A DNA stretch of 30,163 bases, from positions 1 to 30,163 of the forward strand of contig CABIVS010000013.1 in the NCBI GenBank assembly GCA_902362375.1, given 5' to 3'. The notes under the pieces are model-generated. The model did not search any database. It was not told the origin of the DNA and saw only the letters and a list, made by a program, of their open reading frames with translations. Made by a program: the position numbers and the translations under genes. Positions 12,591 to 23,367 of the stretch are shown here, piece by piece. The DNA is from Bacteroidaceae bacterium (GTDB lineage: Bacteria > Bacteroidota > Bacteroidia > Bacteroidales > Bacteroidaceae). Position 1 is the first letter of the stretch. Each line of letters starts with the position of its first letter.

Positions 12591-13619
12591 TTATTTTACC
12601 TCCTTTTTCTTGTCAGTTATAAAGATAGTGTCTCCACTAACTTTCCATGTATATTGCTTCTCAACGTTGATTTCTCCCAATATATCATTGATACTTTGAT
12701 TACTATTGAAACATCCGGAAAAGCGTTCCGCTTTCAGACGTTCACTCTCTAAACTGATCTTCACCTGGAATTTGCGCTCCAGACGGTGTGCGATGTCGGC
12801 AAACGGAGCATCCTCAAATGTCAGGCCACCATCCAACCAGTCACAGGCAGAACTAGCATTTGATTTCATTTTCTCCATGCGGCCCGTATTCTTATCGTAA
12901 AAAGCCTGTTCGCTAGGGAATAGCTTCATCACCGAACCGGACAAAGTGGCTAAATTGACACGACCTTCCAACAGAGATACCATTACATAATTATCGTCAT
13001 CATAAGCACGGACATTAAAAACAGTCCCCACCACCTTTACCTGCACACCATTCGTCGTTACAAAGAAAGGAATCTTCTCATTTTTCGCCACCTTGAAATA
13101 TCCTTCGCCATCAAGCGTAACATCACGTTCACGAATACCGAACCCTCGACAATAGCGTAACACAGAACCCGCATTCAATGAAACCTCTGTTCCATCCGGA
13201 AGCACAATATTCGTCCGCGAACCGGCCGGCACTTTAATTTCATAAGGAGAATCCGCATTCGTATATACTTCCGTAAGATTTTCAGTATAAGTGTACCAGA
13301 AGTAATTACAGCCCAACAACAAAATAATTGCAGCAGCCACCTTCAGCCACACAGGAACTATCTTCCGCGAACGGACAGGCTTCATCTCTGCAGCCGCTAT
13401 TTTTTCTTTTATCTGTGATAAATTAGCATCCTCTATTTTCGCAAATGCAGGCACAGAAGAAACAGCCCATACTGCGGACATCTCCCGGAAAATTTTAGCA
13501 GCATCTTCATTGGAAGCCAGATAAGCGAGCAGAGCTTCTTTCTCTTCTTCGGTGCAGTTACCGGACAGATAGTTGCTTATCCGGATTTCCAATTCTTCTA
13601 TATGATAAGAGTCATTCAT
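12591..13619 (-). CDS. FecR-family anti-sigma factor
   Basis: A 342-residue inner-membrane anti-sigma factor. Residues 1-85 are cytoplasmic and should hold the sigma factor (LSGNCTEEEKEALLAYL, as in the FecR N-terminus). One membrane helix spans about 88-109 (VPVWLKVAAAIILLLG). The periplasmic FecR domain follows (about 118-215, VPAGSRTNIVLPDGTEVSLNAGS). A C-terminal domain of the DUF4974 type (about 270-340, LTFEDAPFADIAHRLERKF) should meet the SusC STN domain. The gene lies 77 bases after the sigma gene and 88 before susC. The full sigma/anti-sigma/SusC relay is therefore present and intact. The identification rests on domain order and context and is firm. Confidence 0.94.
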   Translation of the reverse strand: MNDSYHIEELEIRISNYLSGNCTEEEKEALLAYLASNEDAAKIFREMSAVWAVSSVPAFAKIEDANLSQIKEKIAAAEMKPVRSRKIVPVWLKVAAAIILLLGCNYFWYTYTENLTEVYTNADSPYEIKVPAGSRTNIVLPDGTEVSLNAGSVLRYCRGFGIRERDVTLDGEGYFKVAKNEKIPFFVTTNGVQVKVVGTVFNVRAYDDDNYVMVSLLEGRVNLATLSGSVMKLFPSEQAFYDKNTGRMEKMKSNASSACDWLDGGLTFEDAPFADIAHRLERKFQVKISLESERLKAERFSGCFNSNQSINDILGEINVEKQYTWKVSGDTIFITDKKKEVK

Positions 13620-13696
13620 AAACGTACTTTTTCTATGGGTGTATATAACTAGATACGCAATAAAAAAAGAAACGTTTAAAAGAAAAGCGATTTTTT

Positions 13697-14284
13697 TTAG
13701 AGAAACATCAAAATAGCTATCATATAAGGAGTACCTAGCGATTCGCGCAGCTTAGTCAATGCTATTTTCATCTGTACCCTTACAGTGGTCACATTAATAT
13801 TCTGCTCCTCGGCAATTTCACTATATGTCTTCCCCTCATACAAACTTGCTTTAAATATGGCACGGCATTTGGCAGGCAATTCCTCCACCTTCTTCATGAT
13901 GATGGTATTCATTTCGCTATGCTCCAATGCCTGCAAAGGATTATCGGAAGAAAGAATATGATTTTCGAGAAAAGCCCAGATTTCTTCCATCTGTTCCGTC
14001 ATCTGTTTTTCGTTGAAGTAAGAAGAGCGCAGATAACTGATGCTCGCATTTTGAATGGCACGCCGCAAATACGGAAGAGCAGGATGAGTAATATGATGTC
14101 GATTCTGCCAAAAAGCAACAAAGACATCATTCACAATCTCCCCTGCCACCCTTTTATCATGCACATAATAAACGGCTATCGCACACAAATAAAGATAGTA
14201 GGTATGATAAATTTTATCAAATGCTTTTGTATTACCGTGATTTAACTGTTCAACTAGATTTTCAGAGATTTCTGGTAGATTCAT
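13697..14284 (-). CDS. ECF RNA polymerase sigma factor (PUL regulator)
   Basis: A 195-residue extracytoplasmic-function sigma factor of the Bacteroidetes sigma-70 type. Region 2 includes AFDKIYHTYYLYL and VAGEIVNDVFVAFWQNR. Region 4 contains ELPAKCRAIFKASLYEGKTYSEIAEEQ with the DNA-binding helix (INVTTVRVQMKIALTKL). The frame is open further upstream to an ATG at 14374, but that extension runs across a good promoter (14311-14340) and lacks sigma-like sequence. The ATG at 14284, giving MNLPEISENLVEQL, is therefore the better start. It should be released from the FecR protein when SusC imports its glycan, and then activate susC and the genes after it. Context makes the role strong. Confidence 0.94.
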   Translation of the reverse strand: MNLPEISENLVEQLNHGNTKAFDKIYHTYYLYLCAIAVYYVHDKRVAGEIVNDVFVAFWQNRHHITHPALPYLRRAIQNASISYLRSSYFNEKQMTEQMEEIWAFLENHILSSDNPLQALEHSEMNTIIMKKVEELPAKCRAIFKASLYEGKTYSEIAEEQNINVTTVRVQMKIALTKLRESLGTPYMIAILMFL

Positions 14285-14310
14285 TCGTTGTCTTTCTTTA
14301 AGGAACGGTG

Positions 14311-14340
14311 CAAATATAGCGATTAATTCAGAAAAACAAA
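14311..14340 (-). promoter_or_regulatory. promoter of the sigma/anti-sigma genes
   Basis: On the minus strand TTTG (14340-14337), 18 bases, then TATATTTG (14318-14311) form a near-ideal Bacteroides housekeeping promoter. It lies about 27 bases before the ATG at 14284. It starts the PUL independently of the AbgT gene, and it rules out the longer reading of the sigma ORF. Confidence 0.75.
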
Positions 14341-14383
14341 ATTCCAATCTGATAAACCGGAGCCCGGCAATCATTCCTTAGCC

Positions 14384-15838
14384 CTACAATCCCATCGGTA
14401 TTTTCAACAAATACCAAACGATAAACAACAATGTCCAGACAACCAAAATGCCTAATGAATATCTCCAGGTATATTTCAGCAATGAACCATACGTAATCTG
14501 CTTATCATACTGCCGCATATAGGTAAGCACCAGAGGCATATAGAATAAGAAAGGAGTAATGGCATTCGTCGAGCTATCTCCGATACGGAAAGCACATTGT
14601 GCTATATCCGGAGCAATTCCCATCTGTGCAAACATCGGGATAAAGATAAAAGACATAAAAGCCCATTTGGAAGTAGCAGATACCATAATCAGGTTTATCA
14701 ATGCCGTAAACAGAATAAACAGGACAAGAGCAGACAAAGGAGCCGGTTTAAACGAAGAAAGCAGATCAGCACCCATGATAGCCAGACATTTATCCAGATG
14801 AGAATATTCAAAACAGGCAAACATCTGCGCAGCGAAGAAAGCGATAACGAAATACACTCCAAGAAGCTTCATCGGCTGCGTAAGTCCTTCAATCACATCA
14901 TTGTCTGTGCGATACCGTCCGGAACTGAATCCATAAGCCATTCCCGTAATACCTGCTCCCAAAGAAAGCAAAAACAAAATACCGGCAATAAAAGGCGAAT
15001 GCATCAAGCCACCGTTCACACCCCGCAAAATTCCATAAGAAGAAAAAGTAAGCCACAAGATAAGAGCCACATAGATAGCTGCCACAACAATGGAAATCAT
15101 AATAGCACGCCGCTCTTTACGAGACAGAGGATGGTAAGCCACCACTTTCATACTGCCTTCATATTTACCTAACGTAGGAAGAAGCCATTTTTGAGTAATC
15201 CAATACACAATAGCCGTAATGGCCACCGTTGAAGCACTCATAAAAAAGTAATTGCAAAGAGGTTCCGTATTCCCCTGATAACCCGTTTGTGCCAGTGCAG
15301 CCTCTTGCGTGGTATGCGCCAACAACGGGTCCATCGTACTTAATACAATATTAGCACTATACCCGCACGCAACGGAAACATAAGCCGTAACAATCCCTGC
15401 AACCGGATGAAGCCCCACCCATTGAAACAGCATAGCAGCAATAGGCAATAAAATGATATATCCACCATCACCAATGGCATTCGACAACAAACCAAGCACA
15501 ATCACCCACAAGATGATTTTCCTCTTTTCCTGCCGGTTTCCCACCCCCATGCGGATACATGCATCAATAAAACCGGAATGTTGTGCCACTCCCAATCCGA
15601 ACATAGCAATAATCACCATGCCCAACGGAGCAAAGCCCGTAAAGTTCTTAATAGCGTTCCGCAACCACCAACGGATTCCTTCCGGACTCAACAGGCTTTG
15701 TACACGGATATCCTCACCTGTCTGCGGCAATGTCACTTTCAATCCATAGATATCGCATATCCATGAAAGAAAGACCACTGCCATTGTCAGCAGAAGGAAC
15801 ATCGTAGCGGGATGGGGCATGCGCCATTTATTCTTCAT
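14384..15838 (-). CDS. AbgT-family transporter
   Basis: A 484-residue integral membrane protein of the AbgT (p-aminobenzoyl-glutamate transporter) family, with about a dozen hydrophobic segments. Recognisable stretches are MPHPATMFLLLT at the N-terminus, FTGFAPLGMVIIAMFGLGVAQHSGFID, and GDSSTNAITPFLFYMPL near the C-terminus, which forms part of the substrate site in this family. Characterised members import p-aminobenzoyl-glutamate or export sulfonamides and related compounds, but the substrate here is open. It begins 26 bases after the response regulator gene, so it is probably cotranscribed with the two-component genes and may be their output or their sensed cargo. Length is normal. Confidence 0.92.
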   Translation of the reverse strand: MKNKWRMPHPATMFLLLTMAVVFLSWICDIYGLKVTLPQTGEDIRVQSLLSPEGIRWWLRNAIKNFTGFAPLGMVIIAMFGLGVAQHSGFIDACIRMGVGNRQEKRKIILWVIVLGLLSNAIGDGGYIILLPIAAMLFQWVGLHPVAGIVTAYVSVACGYSANIVLSTMDPLLAHTTQEAALAQTGYQGNTEPLCNYFFMSASTVAITAIVYWITQKWLLPTLGKYEGSMKVVAYHPLSRKERRAIMISIVVAAIYVALILWLTFSSYGILRGVNGGLMHSPFIAGILFLLSLGAGITGMAYGFSSGRYRTDNDVIEGLTQPMKLLGVYFVIAFFAAQMFACFEYSHLDKCLAIMGADLLSSFKPAPLSALVLFILFTALINLIMVSATSKWAFMSFIFIPMFAQMGIAPDIAQCAFRIGDSSTNAITPFLFYMPLVLTYMRQYDKQITYGSLLKYTWRYSLGILVVWTLLFIVWYLLKIPMGL

Positions 15839-15864: not shown

Positions 15865-16593
15865 TTACTCTTCGTCAGGCTCCAGATTATCCAGATCAAT
15901 AATACGCAATTCCAATGCACGTACTGCCAACCGGGTAGCATTCACTCCCACCCGTTCACCATTCGGGAAAAGACGTCCGATAAGATCATTCTGCCGTTTC
16001 TCCAATGATTTCACACCAAAAGGCATTCCTTTCAGATTGGCAATCATCTCTTTCGTATAACCTAATGCCAGATGACGGAGAAAACGTTCGTCATATTCAT
16101 CAATATCATAACTGATGACAGCCTCCTGACGCTTGGCATCGTTGGCTACAGATTTCTTGAAACGATCTACAATCTTTTCCAAAATCGGATAGTTAAATAC
16201 CAATTTCTTTCCGTCCATCACAGCCTGAACGTCTGTTTTCGTCAGTAACTCACCCGTTTTGAGGATGATTCCATCGGCACCGGCATTCAATACGTCCACC
16301 CACAATTTTTCGTTCAGAATCTCACCCGTGAAGATCAGTACCCGAACTCCTTTGTAACGTTTGAATATATTCTTGCAAATATCAACACCAATGGTCGTAG
16401 AACCTCCCAGTCCTAAGTCCAACAATACCAGATCGGGAAGCTGGGCCTCCATCAACGGCCAAAACTCACTTTCCGTCATTGCCGTGCCGATCACTTCCGC
16501 ATTCGGTATTTCATGACGGAATATTTCTTCTGTCCCTTTCAACTCCAGTTTTACATCCTCTACAATAATAACTTTAAACTTCTGTTCTTCCAT
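15865..16593 (-). CDS. response regulator with LuxR-like output domain
   Basis: A 242-residue response regulator. The receiver domain (about 6-120) has the acidic pair Glu12-Asp13, the phosphorylation site Asp59 in LVLLDLGLGG, Thr89 in VLIFTGE and Lys112 in IILKTGE, so the phospho-switch is complete. The C-terminal part (about 165-235) has a LuxR/NarL-like helix-turn-helix pattern: RFLRHLALGYTKEMIANLKG, VKSLEKRQNDLIGRLF, then TRLAVRALELRIID. It is divergent and resembles Bacteroidetes-specific output domains, so DNA binding is likely but not certain. It starts 34 bases after the double kinase gene and ends 26 before abgT, which makes the kinase its partner. Confidence 0.92.
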   Translation of the reverse strand: MEEQKFKVIIVEDVKLELKGTEEIFRHEIPNAEVIGTAMTESEFWPLMEAQLPDLVLLDLGLGGSTTIGVDICKNIFKRYKGVRVLIFTGEILNEKLWVDVLNAGADGIILKTGELLTKTDVQAVMDGKKLVFNYPILEKIVDRFKKSVANDAKRQEAVISYDIDEYDERFLRHLALGYTKEMIANLKGMPFGVKSLEKRQNDLIGRLFPNGERVGVNATRLAVRALELRIIDLDNLEPDEE

Positions 16594-16627: not shown

Positions 16628-19600
16628 CTATCGGCGCGGAATAGTGAAATAAACCGTAAACCCGCCGCCTTCAGCCGGCTCGGCATTGATACGGCATCCC
16701 CTACGTCCCGCAAATTCGTCGTGGTCGCGGATAATCTGCTTGCATACCAGATATTCCGTTCCCCTCAACTCCCCTTTTTCACCGGAAGTCATACGTGCCA
16801 GATTCGGATAAAATAGTTGATTCAACTCTTCCACACTCTTCTCGCGTCTCGTATCCGTAAAGAGGAAACGAATATATTCATTATCCTTGCGTGCTTGCAG
16901 ACGTATCACTCCATCTTCACGCACAGTCAATGCTTCATCAATCAAATTCTCCAATAGAAAACGCAACTGATTCACGTCTCCTATCACCTTCGCCTCCATA
17001 GACTCTATTTCCAATTCTATCCTCTCCGGCCGATTCTTCATCAACTTCTTGAAATATTTTCCGGCAGCATCCAAAAGCTCCTGTACCGGAATCACAGTAC
17101 GCCGGAAAGTGACCTCCTCCAATTGACGGGAAGCACACGAACTCAAAATCGTAAAGATTCCCTTATAGTATTCAATCAATTCCGTCATAGTCTCCACCGC
17201 TTCACGCTCCTCCGTTTCCGTAAGATTCTGCGCATTCAACCGTCCTACAATCTGTTTGATCTTATTCGGATAATAAATCGTCTCATGTTTAATAGTCGAC
17301 AGACAGTTGTCAAGCACCATATTCTGTACATGCAACATGCTGTCCTCCCAAGAAGCCCGGCGTGTTTCTTCGTGTGCCGACTCGATATCCCGGTATTTTG
17401 TAGCCAGCTTCACCACTGCGTTAAACACGACAATAGCCACATAACGAGCTACCAGTTCAAAAAGCAGTCGATCCGTCTCCTGTTCCGTTCCCTCCCTGCG
17501 CTCCAGATAAAGCACACCGACACATTGATGCTCGCCTCCTGCTTCCACCATCAGCGGAATTGCCTGAAGATGCTGTTCGGAAAGATATTTCCCGGAACTA
17601 AAACACAGCTCTACCATCTCCGGCATTTCCTGTCCGGGACGAGAAGCATATTCCAGCCGGTGTGTCGTTTCATTATAAACAGCAATCCCCATCCGGTCAA
17701 TCGTCAGTAATTCATTTACCGAACTGAATGCTTCATCCACAATCCGCTGTGGAATTTCTTTAAGCGTACTCTCTTCCCGTTGAAGCGCCTCTGCGTTTTC
17801 CTGTTCCTGCGGTCTCACCAAAGATGCGGCAAACACCTTCTGATTAATCTCAAGTACTTGTTCGAGATTCAAGCGATTCTGCAAACGTTTTCTCATGTAC
17901 AGGAAATAATATCCGACCAACGAAACAATCAATAAAACAAAGCATAAAATAATTCCTACCGTCTTATTGGTATTCGAACGCTCCAACTGCCGGCAATATG
18001 CTTCGAGAGTTTGATCCTCTCCCTGCAACTTATACAAATCCGTAAATGCCGAATTATTATAACTATATGCATCCAACTGTTTCAAAGCCAGAAAAGCTAC
18101 TGACGCCTCATTCCTGATATCCAAAATTACATGATAATCCGAATCAAACAGTTCGTTCCACCAACTGATTTCAGCAGGCGTTCCCTCACCTACCAGCTTC
18201 ATATACCGATGTGGACGATCCGGACGCGCATATTTTTCATAATGCTCATTCAGAAAAAGCATGGCAGAATCTATATATTGCAAAGCCAACTCATAATTTT
18301 CATCCACATTAGCAAAATAGGCGGCATTCGCATAATCCGATGCTACATCCAGCAAATCCTCATACGCAGAATCCGTAACTACTACAATCGAATCGCCATC
18401 CTGCAACATGGGAGGAATCGGATCATGCAGACAAGAAACCATCCCTAACGGAAATAACAAGCAAAGCAGCAATCCCCCCATCGCTTTACGCACTCCCGAA
18501 GGCAAACGAAAATAAAAACGACTTCCTTTCCCCAGTTCGCTCTCCACATCAAAGACACATCCCCGGAATAAATCATTCGTTTTCTTATACTTCTCAATGA
18601 TTCCCTTACAATTCATCAATCCGAAACCACTACCTTTGTTCTCTTTCAACACTTCCGGATCGGCTGCATTCTTCATTCCGATCACACGGGAATCATACAC
18701 CTTCTCACCAATGATATACACCACATCCTCTTCGGAAATACCTCTTCCGTTATCCTCCACAGAGATCTCGACATAGGCATCCTCCGTAGTGCGGGCATAC
18801 ACTTTAATGGTTCCTCCTTCCGGAGTATATTTACGGGCATTTTCAGCCAGCGTATTAATCATAAACAAAGTCAGTGCCCGGTCAGCCTTCACCATAGCCG
18901 TAGTCGGTTCAATTTCCAACTTCTGATTTTTCATTTCAAAAGCACGTCTTCCCTTGCCTAGCAATTCAAACAGTTCATTGAGACTGAAAGTTTCAATATT
19001 CAAGCTAAGCGTTCCCTGCTTCATCTTAATCCAAAGAGCCAGAATATCGTTGTACTCATTAATCGTAGTTACCAGCTCATCAATGTATTGATACTTCTCT
19101 TTCTTAATCTTCGCATGATCAATATATCCCCTCTCCGTCAACTTATGCACCTCATTCAAGATACGGTCGATATAAGGATTAATACCATTGACAATGGCCA
19201 GACAAGCCTTCTTTATAAGATTCTGGCGTTTATTTCCCGCAATATGTTGTTCGTAAACATACCGTTGCTTTTCCAACTGCATCCGCTCGTCACTCAACGC
19301 TTCCACCATCTGCTCATTATCCGCAGCCCAAACAATATACGGTTCAAGCACATGCACTAACGCTTTTTCATCACGGTTCAACCGATGCAGAGGAACCAGT
19401 GCCGCTTTTCCCTCCTCCGAAATTTCCAGTTGAAGACGTCCTTTCCCGAACAATTGATCGATACCTTGCTGAATTAATGGGACATTCATCGGAATAGACG
19501 AAGTTATGTCCCGGCAAAGAGTCAGAATCCGTTGCAGACGCTCCACGTCTACCTGATTCCTTATTTTAGACCGTTTATTGAAAAACCACCAAAGAATAAC

Positions 19601-20947
19601 CACCAATACAAGTCCGACAATAACCAAAGAAAGTACAAGCGTCATTTGTCGTGAATCGGCTTCCAATGAAAGATAACGGCTCTCCAACTCCTTATCCTGA
19701 CGGGTATAATTCAAAATATCCAGATATATATTCCGGTTGTAGTCAGAAGCATACTTCATCCCGAGCCCCGCATACGACACACTCAATTGCTCCCGAATCC
19801 TTGAAATCCATTCAGGTACCGTTCTCACATCTTCCTGCATAATCCATGGAACCCCGGTATAAGTCGTATCTCCTTCTACAAAAACATATAGTTTATCCAA
19901 TGTATCCGCCGCATGATGATAATAGAGCATGTGATGTTGATTCACACAATCCAACGCTTTTGCAAGCGTATCCAATGCCTCCGAATAACGTCCGTGCTCA
20001 TTCATATATTTACCGATAGACACATACGCACCGGCAATCTGATACAAATCATTATACTCACGGAACTTTTCAAGCGCACGCTGTGCCATCCGCAAAGGCA
20101 AAAGCGAATCTACCGGAAAACCAAACTGATCCAGCGCATATCCCCTTCTCGTCCGGAAAAGTTCGAAATTATTGGGTGAAACCATCAGATTAGCTAATCC
20201 TTGCAGACCATTTCCTTCGAAATAAGGATGATTGGTCTGAACAGCTGTCCGCCACGTAATATAAAGTTGGTCGAACTCACGCATTTTCCGGTCTTCCGGC
20301 TTGGTTGCTTCTACCAATGAGGCCGAACCTTTTATATAATGATAATAAAGCAACTGATTAGTATCTGTCAAAGCTTCATCTTCGGGAATCCGGTTGAGAG
20401 ATGTGATGGCCTCCTGCCGTTGCTGCAGATAGTAGTAATAAATAGAAGAAACGATGAAAAATTCGGTGAACGCATAATCCAGCCGGAGTGCTTCGTGACG
20501 ATCAGCAAACAGGTCACTCTCTTCACGAATACGTTTCATGCGCTTGAGCGCACTGTTACGATAATCATAAAATTCTTTGTTCATAGCCGTCCGCTGACAG
20601 ATTTTCATCAGTCCGATGTCGGCAATCAACAGTTCGAGTTCATTTTTAGTCAGTTTATATACTTCCTTATGCAACGCTTCCGCCCGGTCAAAGTCCATAG
20701 CCATAAAAACACAGAATCCCAGGTTGTTGGATGCTTCCGCTTTCCCCGACTTGTAGAAATTCACCTGCCGATAGGCTTCATTGGCATATTTATAAGAAGA
20801 ATCCAGGCTTCGATAACGATAAGCATACGCTTTCCCGTTTAATGAATCAATCAGGCGCACCTCTTTGGTCGGCACCATATCAGTGCACGAAAAAAAAGAG
20901 GCAAACAACACTATACCTATTATATATAAAGGAAAGCGTGAACTCAT
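16628..20947 (-). CDS. double sensor histidine kinase fusion with TPR-like sensor
   Basis: A 1439-residue membrane protein that reads as two sensor kinases in one chain. It begins with a lipoprotein-like signal (Cys21) and a TPR-rich periplasmic region (about 40-430), then a membrane helix (435-457). A cytoplasmic kinase core follows: the N-box TLAENARKYTPEGG (699-712), EDNGRGI (731-737) and GSGFGLMNCKG (772-782). Next come a second membrane or signal-like segment (822-839), a second periplasmic region (840-993), a membrane helix (996-1018), a GAF-like region (about 1065-1180) and a second kinase core with STIKHETIYY (His1221). The first core has no histidine at the matching place (NG, 587-588). 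The second core keeps His1221 but has lost the DxGxG and GxGxG boxes. I recognise Bacteroidetes DUF5112/DUF5113-type sensors here, from memory. It is the first gene of the kinase-regulator-AbgT operon. The signal it senses is unknown. Confidence 0.88.
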   Translation of the reverse strand: MSSRFPLYIIGIVLFASFFSCTDMVPTKEVRLIDSLNGKAYAYRYRSLDSSYKYANEAYRQVNFYKSGKAEASNNLGFCVFMAMDFDRAEALHKEVYKLTKNELELLIADIGLMKICQRTAMNKEFYDYRNSALKRMKRIREESDLFADRHEALRLDYAFTEFFIVSSIYYYYLQQRQEAITSLNRIPEDEALTDTNQLLYYHYIKGSASLVEATKPEDRKMREFDQLYITWRTAVQTNHPYFEGNGLQGLANLMVSPNNFELFRTRRGYALDQFGFPVDSLLPLRMAQRALEKFREYNDLYQIAGAYVSIGKYMNEHGRYSEALDTLAKALDCVNQHHMLYYHHAADTLDKLYVFVEGDTTYTGVPWIMQEDVRTVPEWISRIREQLSVSYAGLGMKYASDYNRNIYLDILNYTRQDKELESRYLSLEADSRQMTLVLSLVIVGLVLVVILWWFFNKRSKIRNQVDVERLQRILTLCRDITSSIPMNVPLIQQGIDQLFGKGRLQLEISEEGKAALVPLHRLNRDEKALVHVLEPYIVWAADNEQMVEALSDERMQLEKQRYVYEQHIAGNKRQNLIKKACLAIVNGINPYIDRILNEVHKLTERGYIDHAKIKKEKYQYIDELVTTINEYNDILALWIKMKQGTLSLNIETFSLNELFELLGKGRRAFEMKNQKLEIEPTTAMVKADRALTLFMINTLAENARKYTPEGGTIKVYARTTEDAYVEISVEDNGRGISEEDVVYIIGEKVYDSRVIGMKNAADPEVLKENKGSGFGLMNCKGIIEKYKKTNDLFRGCVFDVESELGKGSRFYFRLPSGVRKAMGGLLLCLLFPLGMVSCLHDPIPPMLQDGDSIVVVTDSAYEDLLDVASDYANAAYFANVDENYELALQYIDSAMLFLNEHYEKYARPDRPHRYMKLVGEGTPAEISWWNELFDSDYHVILDIRNEASVAFLALKQLDAYSYNNSAFTDLYKLQGEDQTLEAYCRQLERSNTNKTVGIILCFVLLIVSLVGYYFLYMRKRLQNRLNLEQVLEINQKVFAASLVRPQEQENAEALQREESTLKEIPQRIVDEAFSSVNELLTIDRMGIAVYNETTHRLEYASRPGQEMPEMVELCFSSGKYLSEQHLQAIPLMVEAGGEHQCVGVLYLERREGTEQETDRLLFELVARYVAIVVFNAVVKLATKYRDIESAHEETRRASWEDSMLHVQNMVLDNCLSTIKHETIYYPNKIKQIVGRLNAQNLTETEEREAVETMTELIEYYKGIFTILSSCASRQLEEVTFRRTVIPVQELLDAAGKYFKKLMKNRPERIELEIESMEAKVIGDVNQLRFLLENLIDEALTVREDGVIRLQARKDNEYIRFLFTDTRREKSVEELNQLFYPNLARMTSGEKGELRGTEYLVCKQIIRDHDEFAGRRGCRINAEPAEGGGFTVYFTIPRR

Positions 20948-22175: not shown

Positions 22176-22202
22176 ACTATCATTTATCACCTATCATCTA
22201 TT
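22176..22202 (-). repeat. right arm of a 27-bp perfect inverted repeat
   Basis: Exact reverse complement of 22038-22064. It overlaps the last codons and the TAG stop of the MORN gene (stop at 22198-22200), so the arm is partly coding. Confidence 0.85.
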
Positions 22203-23367
22203 GAAGTCTTCCAAATTTATAGGTTCCTTTTTTAATCACTTTCCCATCTTTATCTGTTTCTACAAAGGGACCATTCTTCTTTCCTTGTTTGAAAAAGCCT
22301 TCGAAGCGATTACCGTCTTTGTCGATTTGTACGCCTTGTCCGTCTTCCAATCCATCAACAAAGCCACCTTTATATTGCATACCAGCAACGGTTTTCAGAG
22401 TACCCTGTCCATTGGGACGGTTATCTTTCCACTCACCATCATAAACATCGCCATTGCTCCATTTATAGACTCCCTTACCATCACGTTTGTTATTTTTCCA
22501 GCTTCCTTCATATACAGCACCATTCGCCCAGGTAAAAGTACCTTTTCCGTCTTGCATGCCATTTTTGAAATTACCAACATATTTGTCACCGTTAGCGTGA
22601 TAATAAACTCCCTCACCGGTACGTTCACCTAAGAGATAAGAACCTTCATAACGATCGCCCGTATGAAAGTAGTAAGTACCTTTCCCATGTTGGATATCAT
22701 CTGCCCAGTCACCGTCGTATTTATCTCCATTGGTATATTCAAACACCCCTTTTCCGTGACGGACATCATCTTTCCAGTCTCCTTCATACTTACAGCCGTC
22801 GTCCCAGTTCATGATACCTTTGCCATTCTTCTTATCATTTTTCCAGTGACCGGTATATTGGGCACCATTCGCCCAAGTGTATGTACCTTCGCCTTCACGC
22901 TTATCATTCACCCATTTACCTACATACAAATCACCGTTATGATAATACATTGTTCCTTCACCATGCTGATAATCCTGATACCACATACCGTCGTAACGGT
23001 TATTATTCATAAAATAATAAATACCCTTTCCATGCTGCTGGTCCTGAAACCACTGTCCTTCGTACTTTTCTCCGTCGGGAAACATATAAATTCCATATCC
23101 CTCACGTTTTCCCTTCACATATTCTCCTTCAAAGACATCACCGTTTTTAAAGACAGTTTTTCCTTTTCCATTCGGTTTTCGTCCTTTCATTTCTCCCGTA
23201 TAGACACTGCCATCCTTAAAAGTATAGTTGCCAATCTTTATTTCAGTGGAGAATGTATCTTTAATTTTTCCGAAAAATCCGCCTTTTTTTCCTTCATTTT
23301 CTTGTGCCATCACTCCCTCTTGTGCAAGAAGAGCCAGCAAAAGTGTAGTATATAGATATTTCCTCAT
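22198..23367 (-). CDS. secreted MORN-repeat protein
   Basis: A 389-residue protein with a signal peptide (about 1-21, ending VMAQ) and fourteen consecutive 23-residue MORN repeats from about residue 55 to 376. Typical units are KYEGDWKDDVRHGKGVFEYTNGD and VYEGSWKNNKRDGKGVYKWSNGD (split here for display: Y-x-G-x-W, then G-K-G). The repeats are diverged yet of strictly equal length. MORN arrays form elongated beta-sheets that can bind lipids or scaffold proteins. There is no kinase domain, so the common label PIP 5-kinase would be wrong. The role is unknown, and location is periplasmic or outer-membrane associated by inference. It has its own promoter and is separated from the M16 gene by 85 bases. 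Confidence 0.9.
   Translation of the reverse strand: MRKYLYTTLLLALLAQEGVMAQENEGKKGGFFGKIKDTFSTEIKIGNYTFKDGSVYTGEMKGRKPNGKGKTVFKNGDVFEGEYVKGKREGYGIYMFPDGEKYEGQWFQDQQHGKGIYYFMNNNRYDGMWYQDYQHGEGTMYYHNGDLYVGKWVNDKREGEGTYTWANGAQYTGHWKNDKKNGKGIMNWDDGCKYEGDWKDDVRHGKGVFEYTNGDKYDGDWADDIQHGKGTYYFHTGDRYEGSYLLGERTGEGVYYHANGDKYVGNFKNGMQDGKGTFTWANGAVYEGSWKNNKRDGKGVYKWSNGDVYDGEWKDNRPNGQGTLKTVAGMQYKGGFVDGLEDGQGVQIDKDGNRFEGFFKQGKKNGPFVETDKDGKVIKKGTYKFGRLQ

Follow-up and report, generated by a model that had tools for sequence, protein, structure and literature searches.

The typical histidine kinase is a homodimer whose two active sites are identical, which complicates the assignment of a role to either of them. 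Systems in which ATP binding is separated from the phospho-acceptor are already known. For group A Streptococcus, it has been suggested that the kinase domain of FasB phosphorylates H246 in the putative pseudokinase FasC, with the FasB/FasC heterodimer phosphorylating one regulator (PMC12675982). In the CheA3/CheA4 pair of Rhodobacter sphaeroides, neither part autophosphorylates on its own (PMC3591291). The same source tallies split-kinase candidates with HisKA and HATPase on separate proteins, a definition under which a one-gene case such as the present one would not be included. ChpT joins a helical hairpin bearing the acceptor histidine to a domain that resembles an ATPase but makes no use of ATP (PMC3433190). 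Here we describe a double histidine kinase gene on a 30,163-nucleotide stretch of Bacteroidaceae DNA (contig CABIVS010000013.1; the whole stretch is hereafter the window). On the evidence of its sequence, we consider it likely that this single gene encodes a split histidine kinase, whose first ATP-binding domain (CA1) would phosphorylate His1221 in the second half, the phosphate then passing to the adjacent regulator.

The protein contains two units, each composed of dimerisation helices (DHp) and an ATPase fold (CA). The sequence CLAIVNGINPYID occupies residues 582-594 of half 1 and CLSTIKHETIYY residues 1215-1226 of half 2; at the position of the phospho-acceptor, the sequence is CLAIVNGINPYIDR in half 1 and CLSTIKHETIYYP in half 2. 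All ATP boxes are present in half 1, namely the N-box (N698-T708), G1 (D732-N-G-R-G736) and G2 (K771-G-S-G-F-G-L777). CA2 (about 1279-1439) still scores above the Pfam HATPase_c cut-off (36.7 against 26.4 bits), and profile alignment sets E1338 opposite N703 of the N-box, R1367/E1369 opposite G734/G736 of G1 and L1394/G1396/E1398 opposite G772/G774/G776 of G2. Half 2 is therefore a histidine hairpin followed by an ATPase-like fold without a working ATP site, as judged from both the sequence and the model. Neither DHp-CA unit combines the histidine with an ATP site: one half has the site without the acceptor and the other the acceptor without the site, the arrangement that would define a split kinase. 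The parts of the protein, all on the minus strand, are as follows.

16628..20947, minus: double histidine kinase, open reading frame (ORF) of 1439 residues in a single uninterrupted frame (Pfam)
20885..20941, minus: N-terminal signal or transmembrane (TM) segment, residues 3-21, with a lipobox-like end ...SFFSC (hydropathy; Cys21 in 177/194 homologues)
20060..20851, minus: DUF5112, presumed periplasmic TPR-like sensor, residues 33-296 (Pfam PF17139, E 5.9e-95)
19571..20056, minus: DUF5113 copy 1, residues 298-459 (Pfam PF17140, E 1.6e-53)
19580..19645, minus: TM helix, residues 435-456
19013..19270, minus: DHp1, dimerisation helices without phospho-acceptor histidine, residues 560-645 (model helices; column counts)
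19163..19204, minus: H-box equivalent CLAIVNGINPYIDR, residues 582-595, with N587 in place of histidine (column counts; single-kinase alignment)
18494..19012, minus: CA1, complete ATP-binding domain, residues 646-818
18431..18499, minus: junction of the halves, RKAMGGLLLCLLFPLGMVSC, signal-peptide-like, residues 817-839
17891..18364, minus: DUF5113 copy 2, residues 862-1019 (Pfam PF17140, E 8.2e-56)
17894..17959, minus: TM helix, residues 997-1018
17498..17788, minus: GAF-like stretch, residues about 1054-1150 (model secondary structure; weak GAF_3)
17123..17377, minus: DHp2 with phospho-acceptor, residues 1191-1275 (column counts; model helices)
17285..17287, minus: codon of His1221, within K-H-E-T-x-Y-Y-P (194/194 homologues)
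16631..17113, minus: CA2, ATPase fold without a working ATP site, residues 1279-1439

Conservation of the pattern was assessed in a family of 194 proteins. A first scan of species genomes yielded 79 loci with best-segment identities of 33-96%; four with a broken frame (L066, L067, L073, L079) and one that was cut (L078) were excluded. To the window protein and the 74 intact loci were added 19 divergent members, chosen to cover lower-scoring members of the family, and 100 further Bacteroidaceae loci drawn from the best listed matches of a half-2 profile scan rather than from all matches. A twentieth divergent locus, L159, was omitted as another kinase (aligned row DLRSPL, without the KHET motif), and the pieces L001-L014 were left unused. 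The set contains 190 distinct sequences, with an effective number (Neff) of about 130 at 80% identity.

Column counts place K1220, H1221, E1222, Y1226 and P1227 in every one of the 194 proteins. N703, D732, G734, G736, G774 and G776 of half 1 are likewise invariant, and G772 is kept in 190/194. Column 588 never holds histidine, column 1338 of half 2 never holds asparagine, and no half 2 has a complete ATP site; L265 has both G1 glycines in half 2 but lacks the aspartate. Since D1365 is retained in 153/194, CA2 appears to have been degraded to differing degrees. The degenerate CA2 is nonetheless under strong purifying selection, with a ratio of nonsynonymous to synonymous substitution rates (dN/dS) of 0.038-0.063, similar to that of CA1 (0.033-0.064). 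Mean pairwise identity is 0.47 for DHp1 and 0.53 for DHp2.

Two observations temper this picture. The 100 later loci ranked among the best against a profile that includes the H-box, so that members retaining it are favoured, and histidine does occur at column 587 in three proteins (L081, L158 and L214), where it is followed by glycine or serine and never by an acidic residue. The complementary pattern held in the initial 75 sequences as it does in the full set. A frameshift or draft artefact as its cause is rejected on the strength of its presence in all 194 proteins, and at the level of sequence the complementary loss is confirmed as a real family trait. The initial annotation of this locus had read half 1 as an intact ATP site lacking the H-box histidine, and half 2 as carrying His1221 over an ATP region without working boxes. 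Both statements are right at the places given, and the division of labour drawn from them is well supported: among the 194 proteins, no invariant histidine occupies the H-box place of half 1, and no member has two canonical halves.

A histidine elsewhere in the first helix was also considered. H568 (codon 19244-19246, minus strand) is the sole histidine between residues 540 and 650 in more than half of the proteins (histidine in 136/194, arginine in 37/194). It was set aside as an alternative acceptor of half 1 because of the arginine in 37/194, its location outside the H-box, about 19 residues ahead of it, and the lack of a following acidic residue. H568 sits at roughly the position that H1206, present in 163/194, takes in half 2.

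We next consider the origin of the two halves. Their cytoplasmic cores match one another (hhalign probability 98.4, E 7.8e-15, 341 columns), and so do their periplasmic regions when compared as profiles (probability 99.1, E 4.2e-19). Related single kinases also exist. In the genome G102, from outside the Bacteroidaceae, one 710-residue kinase carries CLSIFRHDMSPY together with an ATP site, and the adjoining regulator scores above the DUF5932 cut-off (26.2 against 23.7 bits). A protein search with this kinase found 680 relatives; among the 120 listed, RHDxxP[YF] occurs in 120, the N-box in 117, G1 in 117 and G2, as HGFGL or GxGFGL, in 116 (strict GxGFGL in 18). DUF5112 is above its cut-off in three of nine single kinases scanned (P0219, P0231 and P0236). 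Against the periplasmic region of the singles, half 1 aligns with a probability of 96.6 (E 6e-10) and half 2 with only 28.0 (6.3e-4). The single kinases align their histidine with H1221 in half 2 and, by way of a one-residue gap after Cys-Leu, with N587 in half 1. The register that the initial annotation had taken from the shared Cys-Leu is shifted accordingly: N587, not G588, stands opposite the lost histidine.

Because DUF5113 occurs twice, the cores match and unduplicated relatives with both histidine and ATP site exist, it is well supported by sequence that the halves are tandem copies of one kinase that became fused, as had been proposed at the outset. Under this scheme, in an ancestral kinase of the form DUF5112-DUF5113-TM-DHp-CA, the stretch from DUF5113 to CA would have undergone tandem duplication and fusion; half 1 would then have lost its acceptor histidine while retaining a working ATPase domain, and half 2 would have kept the histidine and its acidic neighbour, losing the ATP site but not the ATPase fold. 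The simplest history would place all of these steps, from duplication and fusion of a canonical kinase to complementary loss, before the sampled Bacteroidaceae diverged. Profile alignments restricted to the DHp segments cover little sequence and score poorly (probabilities of 28, 10 and 1.5), the last of these being DHp1 against DHp2, which on their own are barely alike. A tree was built from 39 half-1, 39 half-2 and 20 single cores together with 5 others. In it, half 1, half 2 and the singles each fall on one side of a branch (support 100/99, 100/99 and 100/97, respectively). The three groups are joined by long branches in no settled order, so the tree does not decide whether the halves are sisters. 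The DUF5112-bearing single kinase P0231 has matches in 2/295 Bacteroidales genomes, both of one genus. Its absence from 32 Bacteroidaceae genomes picked for having no or a weak double-kinase match (0/32) is uninformative by itself. DUF5932 was found in 6/295 Bacteroidales genomes, four of them Bacteroidaceae and two from the family of G102 (2/60 there).

How might such a protein work? CA1 is the only usual ATP binder and H1221 the only invariant H-box acceptor; CA1 must therefore serve H1221 if the protein is a self-sufficient kinase. We infer that CA1 would bind ATP and phosphorylate His1221 on DHp2, most likely across a heterotypic DHp1:DHp2 four-helix bundle. The phosphoryl group would then move to the adjacent DUF5932 response regulator, which is presumably the obvious receiver, and CA2, as a pseudo-ATPase, would have a structural or regulatory role. 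It probably follows from the sequence pattern that the two halves work only together. Alternatively, His1221 could receive its phosphate from another kinase. In the fullest form of this alternative, half 2 is a phosphotransfer or phosphatase module like Spo0B or ChpT, fed by another kinase, and CA1 merely senses nucleotide. Half 2 does share the ChpT plan, pairing a histidine hairpin with an ATPase-like domain that has no ATP site. However, the catalytic boxes of CA1 are kept in 194/194 proteins (G772 in 190/194) in the same frame as half 2, and Pfam detects no receiver domain in the protein to feed phosphotransfer. We consider this explanation improbable.

The bundle itself was approached through two monomer models (predicted local distance difference test, pLDDT, 80.3 and 80.6). 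A DHp1/DHp2 bundle shared between the halves is expected to give superpositions that cross from one half to the other. In model 1, the alignments of five LOV-kinase protomers span the region between DHp1 and CA2 inclusive (228-239 residues, root-mean-square deviation (rmsd) 5.3-7.0). Several results nevertheless weigh against a mixed bundle. The predicted TM-scores are only 0.54 and 0.57. Model 2 repeats the cross-half match for only two of the five LOV chains (232-234 residues, rmsd 6.8), the other three sitting on half 2 alone at rmsd 16.1-16.8. Matches to other kinases within one half had a similar rmsd, in model 1 with 4biy_A (half 2, rmsd 6.5) and 3d36_B (half 1, 7.1), and in half 1 of model 2 with 4biz_E (6.7), 5idj (7.0) and 8vc9_A (7.2). 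Coevolution analysis by mean-field direct coupling analysis (mfDCA; 190 distinct rows, Neff 130) was without power, pairs within each DHp not being enriched (0.81 and 0.92); the DHp1-DHp2 enrichment of 1.22 was not used because this within-DHp control failed. The superposition ranges, with rows for and against, are no more than suggestive of a mixed DHp1:DHp2 bundle.

The same ranges bear on a different assembly, in which two full-length chains form homotypic DHp1-DHp1 and DHp2-DHp2 dimers and CA1 reaches His1221 in either chain. Ordinary histidine kinases are homodimers, DHp1 and DHp2 are both well conserved, and some within-half superpositions are as good as the cross-half ones, all of which count in its favour. 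Each monomer model, however, gave two or more superpositions on a kinase protomer that run from DHp1 to CA2, and these suggest, without establishing, the mixed bundle. On balance we regard homotypic dimers as rather unlikely. CA1 may act on its own chain or on another. The interpretation first offered for this locus, in which half 1 phosphorylates half 2 in cis with two periplasmic sensors gating one output, is supported in part. Duplication, fusion and division of labour are well supported; transfer in cis is only one possibility, the models being no more than suggestive and the coevolution data powerless, and the junction between the halves resembles a signal peptide, so that two separate subunits could be the active form. 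Two sensors remain a fair description, DUF5112 and DUF5113 lying in half 1 and DUF5113 with a GAF-like stretch in half 2 (GAF_3 reaches only E 0.017 in the window kinase, under its cut-off, and E<=0.01 in 2/38 members). The topology would place both kinase cores in the cytoplasm and the DUF5112 and DUF5113 parts in the periplasm.

The junction in the window protein, RKAMGGLLLCLLFPLGMVSC, ends in a lipobox-like manner, while other genera have AxA-like ends such as RRALTILLLLCTGLTARAQ; judged by eye, the type of site varies with lineage. From its sequence, the gene product may thus be a precursor later cleaved to give two subunits, or else the junction is the relict start of a second gene, now a membrane anchor. 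In the former case, signal peptidase would cut near residue 839 to yield an ATPase subunit and a histidine subunit, forming a 1:1 membrane pair with phosphorylation between polypeptides. This fits the division of labour and conflicts with phosphorylation in cis. We compared the junctions with 151 internal hydrophobic segments from neighbouring genes, using rules of our own that were fixed after the sequences had been viewed. The junctions have a basic n-region and a short hydrophobic run (median 14, against 18 in controls). A lipobox or SPase-I-like site was present in 64.9% of junctions (n=194) and 18.5% of controls (n=151), and a lipobox in 36.6% and 2.0%, respectively; the proteins' own N-termini, as a positive control (n=190), gave 80.0% for any site and 76.8% for a lipobox. 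Shuffling led to a similar result, with a loose lipobox at 71/193 junctions against a mean of 19.5 and a maximum of 31 over 500 shuffles, and a lipobox or [AVSTI]xA at 125 against a mean of 79.8 and a maximum of 98.

Set against this, AxA-type sites alone do not exceed within-row shuffles (AxA 29 against 19.2, maximum 30; [AVSTI]xA 69 against 66.9), and a strict lipobox is found at only 26/194 junctions and 54/194 N-termini. Family members are not independent, and each control was required to have at least two K/R ahead of the segment, a selection not applied to the junctions. A relict signal persisting as a transmembrane helix would, moreover, look alike. Cutting of the precursor by signal peptidase is accordingly a possibility that we hold with less than even confidence. 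We hold just as tentatively to the more specific proposal that cleavage at an internal signal peptide yields two subunits that must pair 1:1 as a heterodimer, with a single kinase site and a single acceptor. The enzyme that cuts would then depend on lineage and the division of labour would be fixed. FbcH is a precedent for an internal signal, which our literature search did not return among the matches listed.

The half-2 profile has matches in 260/301 Bacteroidaceae genomes (E<=1e-3). About 233 of these, counted from the listing, are at 1.6e-20 or better, and the remaining 27 look like generic ATPase hits. At the level of the order, 154/247 genomes match at E<=1e-5. Three of them are Bacteroidaceae, at 3.6e-175 or better; the best match outside the family is in G102 (3.3e-18), and the ranges listed cover mostly the ATPase part. 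We take the matches outside the Bacteroidaceae, few of which were inspected, for other kinases. Database names of close relatives are 'DUF5113 domain-containing protein' or 'histidine kinase'. With DUF5112, DUF5113 and HATPase_c in one protein and a DUF5932 gene adjacent, the window fits the DUF5112/DUF5113 kinase family with its DUF5932 regulator. The two genes that follow the kinase are these.

15865..16593, minus: probable cognate response regulator, receiver plus DUF5932 (Pfam; adjoins the kinase in 72/74 loci)
14384..15838, minus: AbgT-family transporter gene, perhaps co-transcribed (Pfam; downstream in 56/64 loci)

No regulator was seen beside the kinase in the two other loci, L024 and L027. 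The Pfam scan detected no receiver or helix-turn-helix domain in the kinase chain, the regulator being a separate gene, unlike in a Bacteroides hybrid two-component system. The count for the AbgT-like ORF refers to loci with sufficient flank. In Phocaeicola-type loci (for example L086, 12083-12844) a much shorter AbgT-like ORF of about 250 residues holds the transporter position. Downstream of the transporter, the window encodes a sigma-70 factor and a FecR-type anti-sigma factor (12591-14374, minus strand; Pfam). At 22198-23367 (minus strand) lies a gene for a 389-residue protein with 13 matches to the MORN repeat and, far under the Pfam cut-off, a start resembling that of a lipoprotein.

If the proposed scheme is correct, evolution has fixed an asymmetric kinase in most sampled Bacteroidaceae genomes, common gut bacteria included, with a single ATP site and a single acceptor but two sensor regions. 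The family would allow a test of whether such a kinase can integrate two inputs at a single site of phosphorylation. It would likewise make testable the purpose of a conserved pseudo-ATPase domain, and the question of whether the switch-like responses modelled for CheA3/CheA4 (PMC3591291) arise in split kinases. Were the junction cut, the family would exemplify a bacterial signalling enzyme produced as a polyprotein, and a true two-subunit split kinase from one gene.

In the open-licence literature searched we found no description of this family: there was no mention of DUF5113, DUF5112 or DUF5932 in those papers, and none of the matches listed for double, dual or tandem histidine kinases, judged from the listings, described it. 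Among its closest counterparts are single kinases. P0219, P0231 and P0236 share its sensor family and the CLS..H-box surroundings, and the single kinase of locus L191 (4230-6362) shares those surroundings and a DUF5932-type regulator. Unlike the window protein, all four consist of one half only, with histidine and ATP site together, and represent the unduplicated form. DivL and RetS, whose PDB chains 4q20 and 6dk7 are among the fold matches of our models, are also histidine-kinase relatives that act on another kinase instead of carrying out the full reaction (PMC12471899, PMC12675982). They are modulators of that kinase, however, whereas the halves described here are two incomplete units that complement one another. 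The layout of ChpT, and of Spo0B as named in the same source, resembles half 2, but ChpT stands alone as a dimer within a phosphorelay (PMC3433190), and half 2 shares its chain with an ATPase-competent half and with a membrane sensor.

CheA3/CheA4 similarly divides ATP binding and the phospho-acceptor between its parts, but these are separate chemotaxis CheA proteins with a P1 acceptor domain (PMC3591291). The window family instead has two DHp-CA folds in a single membrane chain from one ORF with a signal-peptide-like junction, and no CheA P1 or P5 domain was among the 10 Pfam families found at E<=1 in the window scan. FasB/FasC likewise consists of two sensor-kinase halves that divide labour, from two genes, with FasB keeping a candidate histidine, H284 (PMC12675982). 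By comparison, the present family has one gene, a half 1 without the histidine, other sensors and the same pattern in 194/194 Bacteroidaceae proteins.

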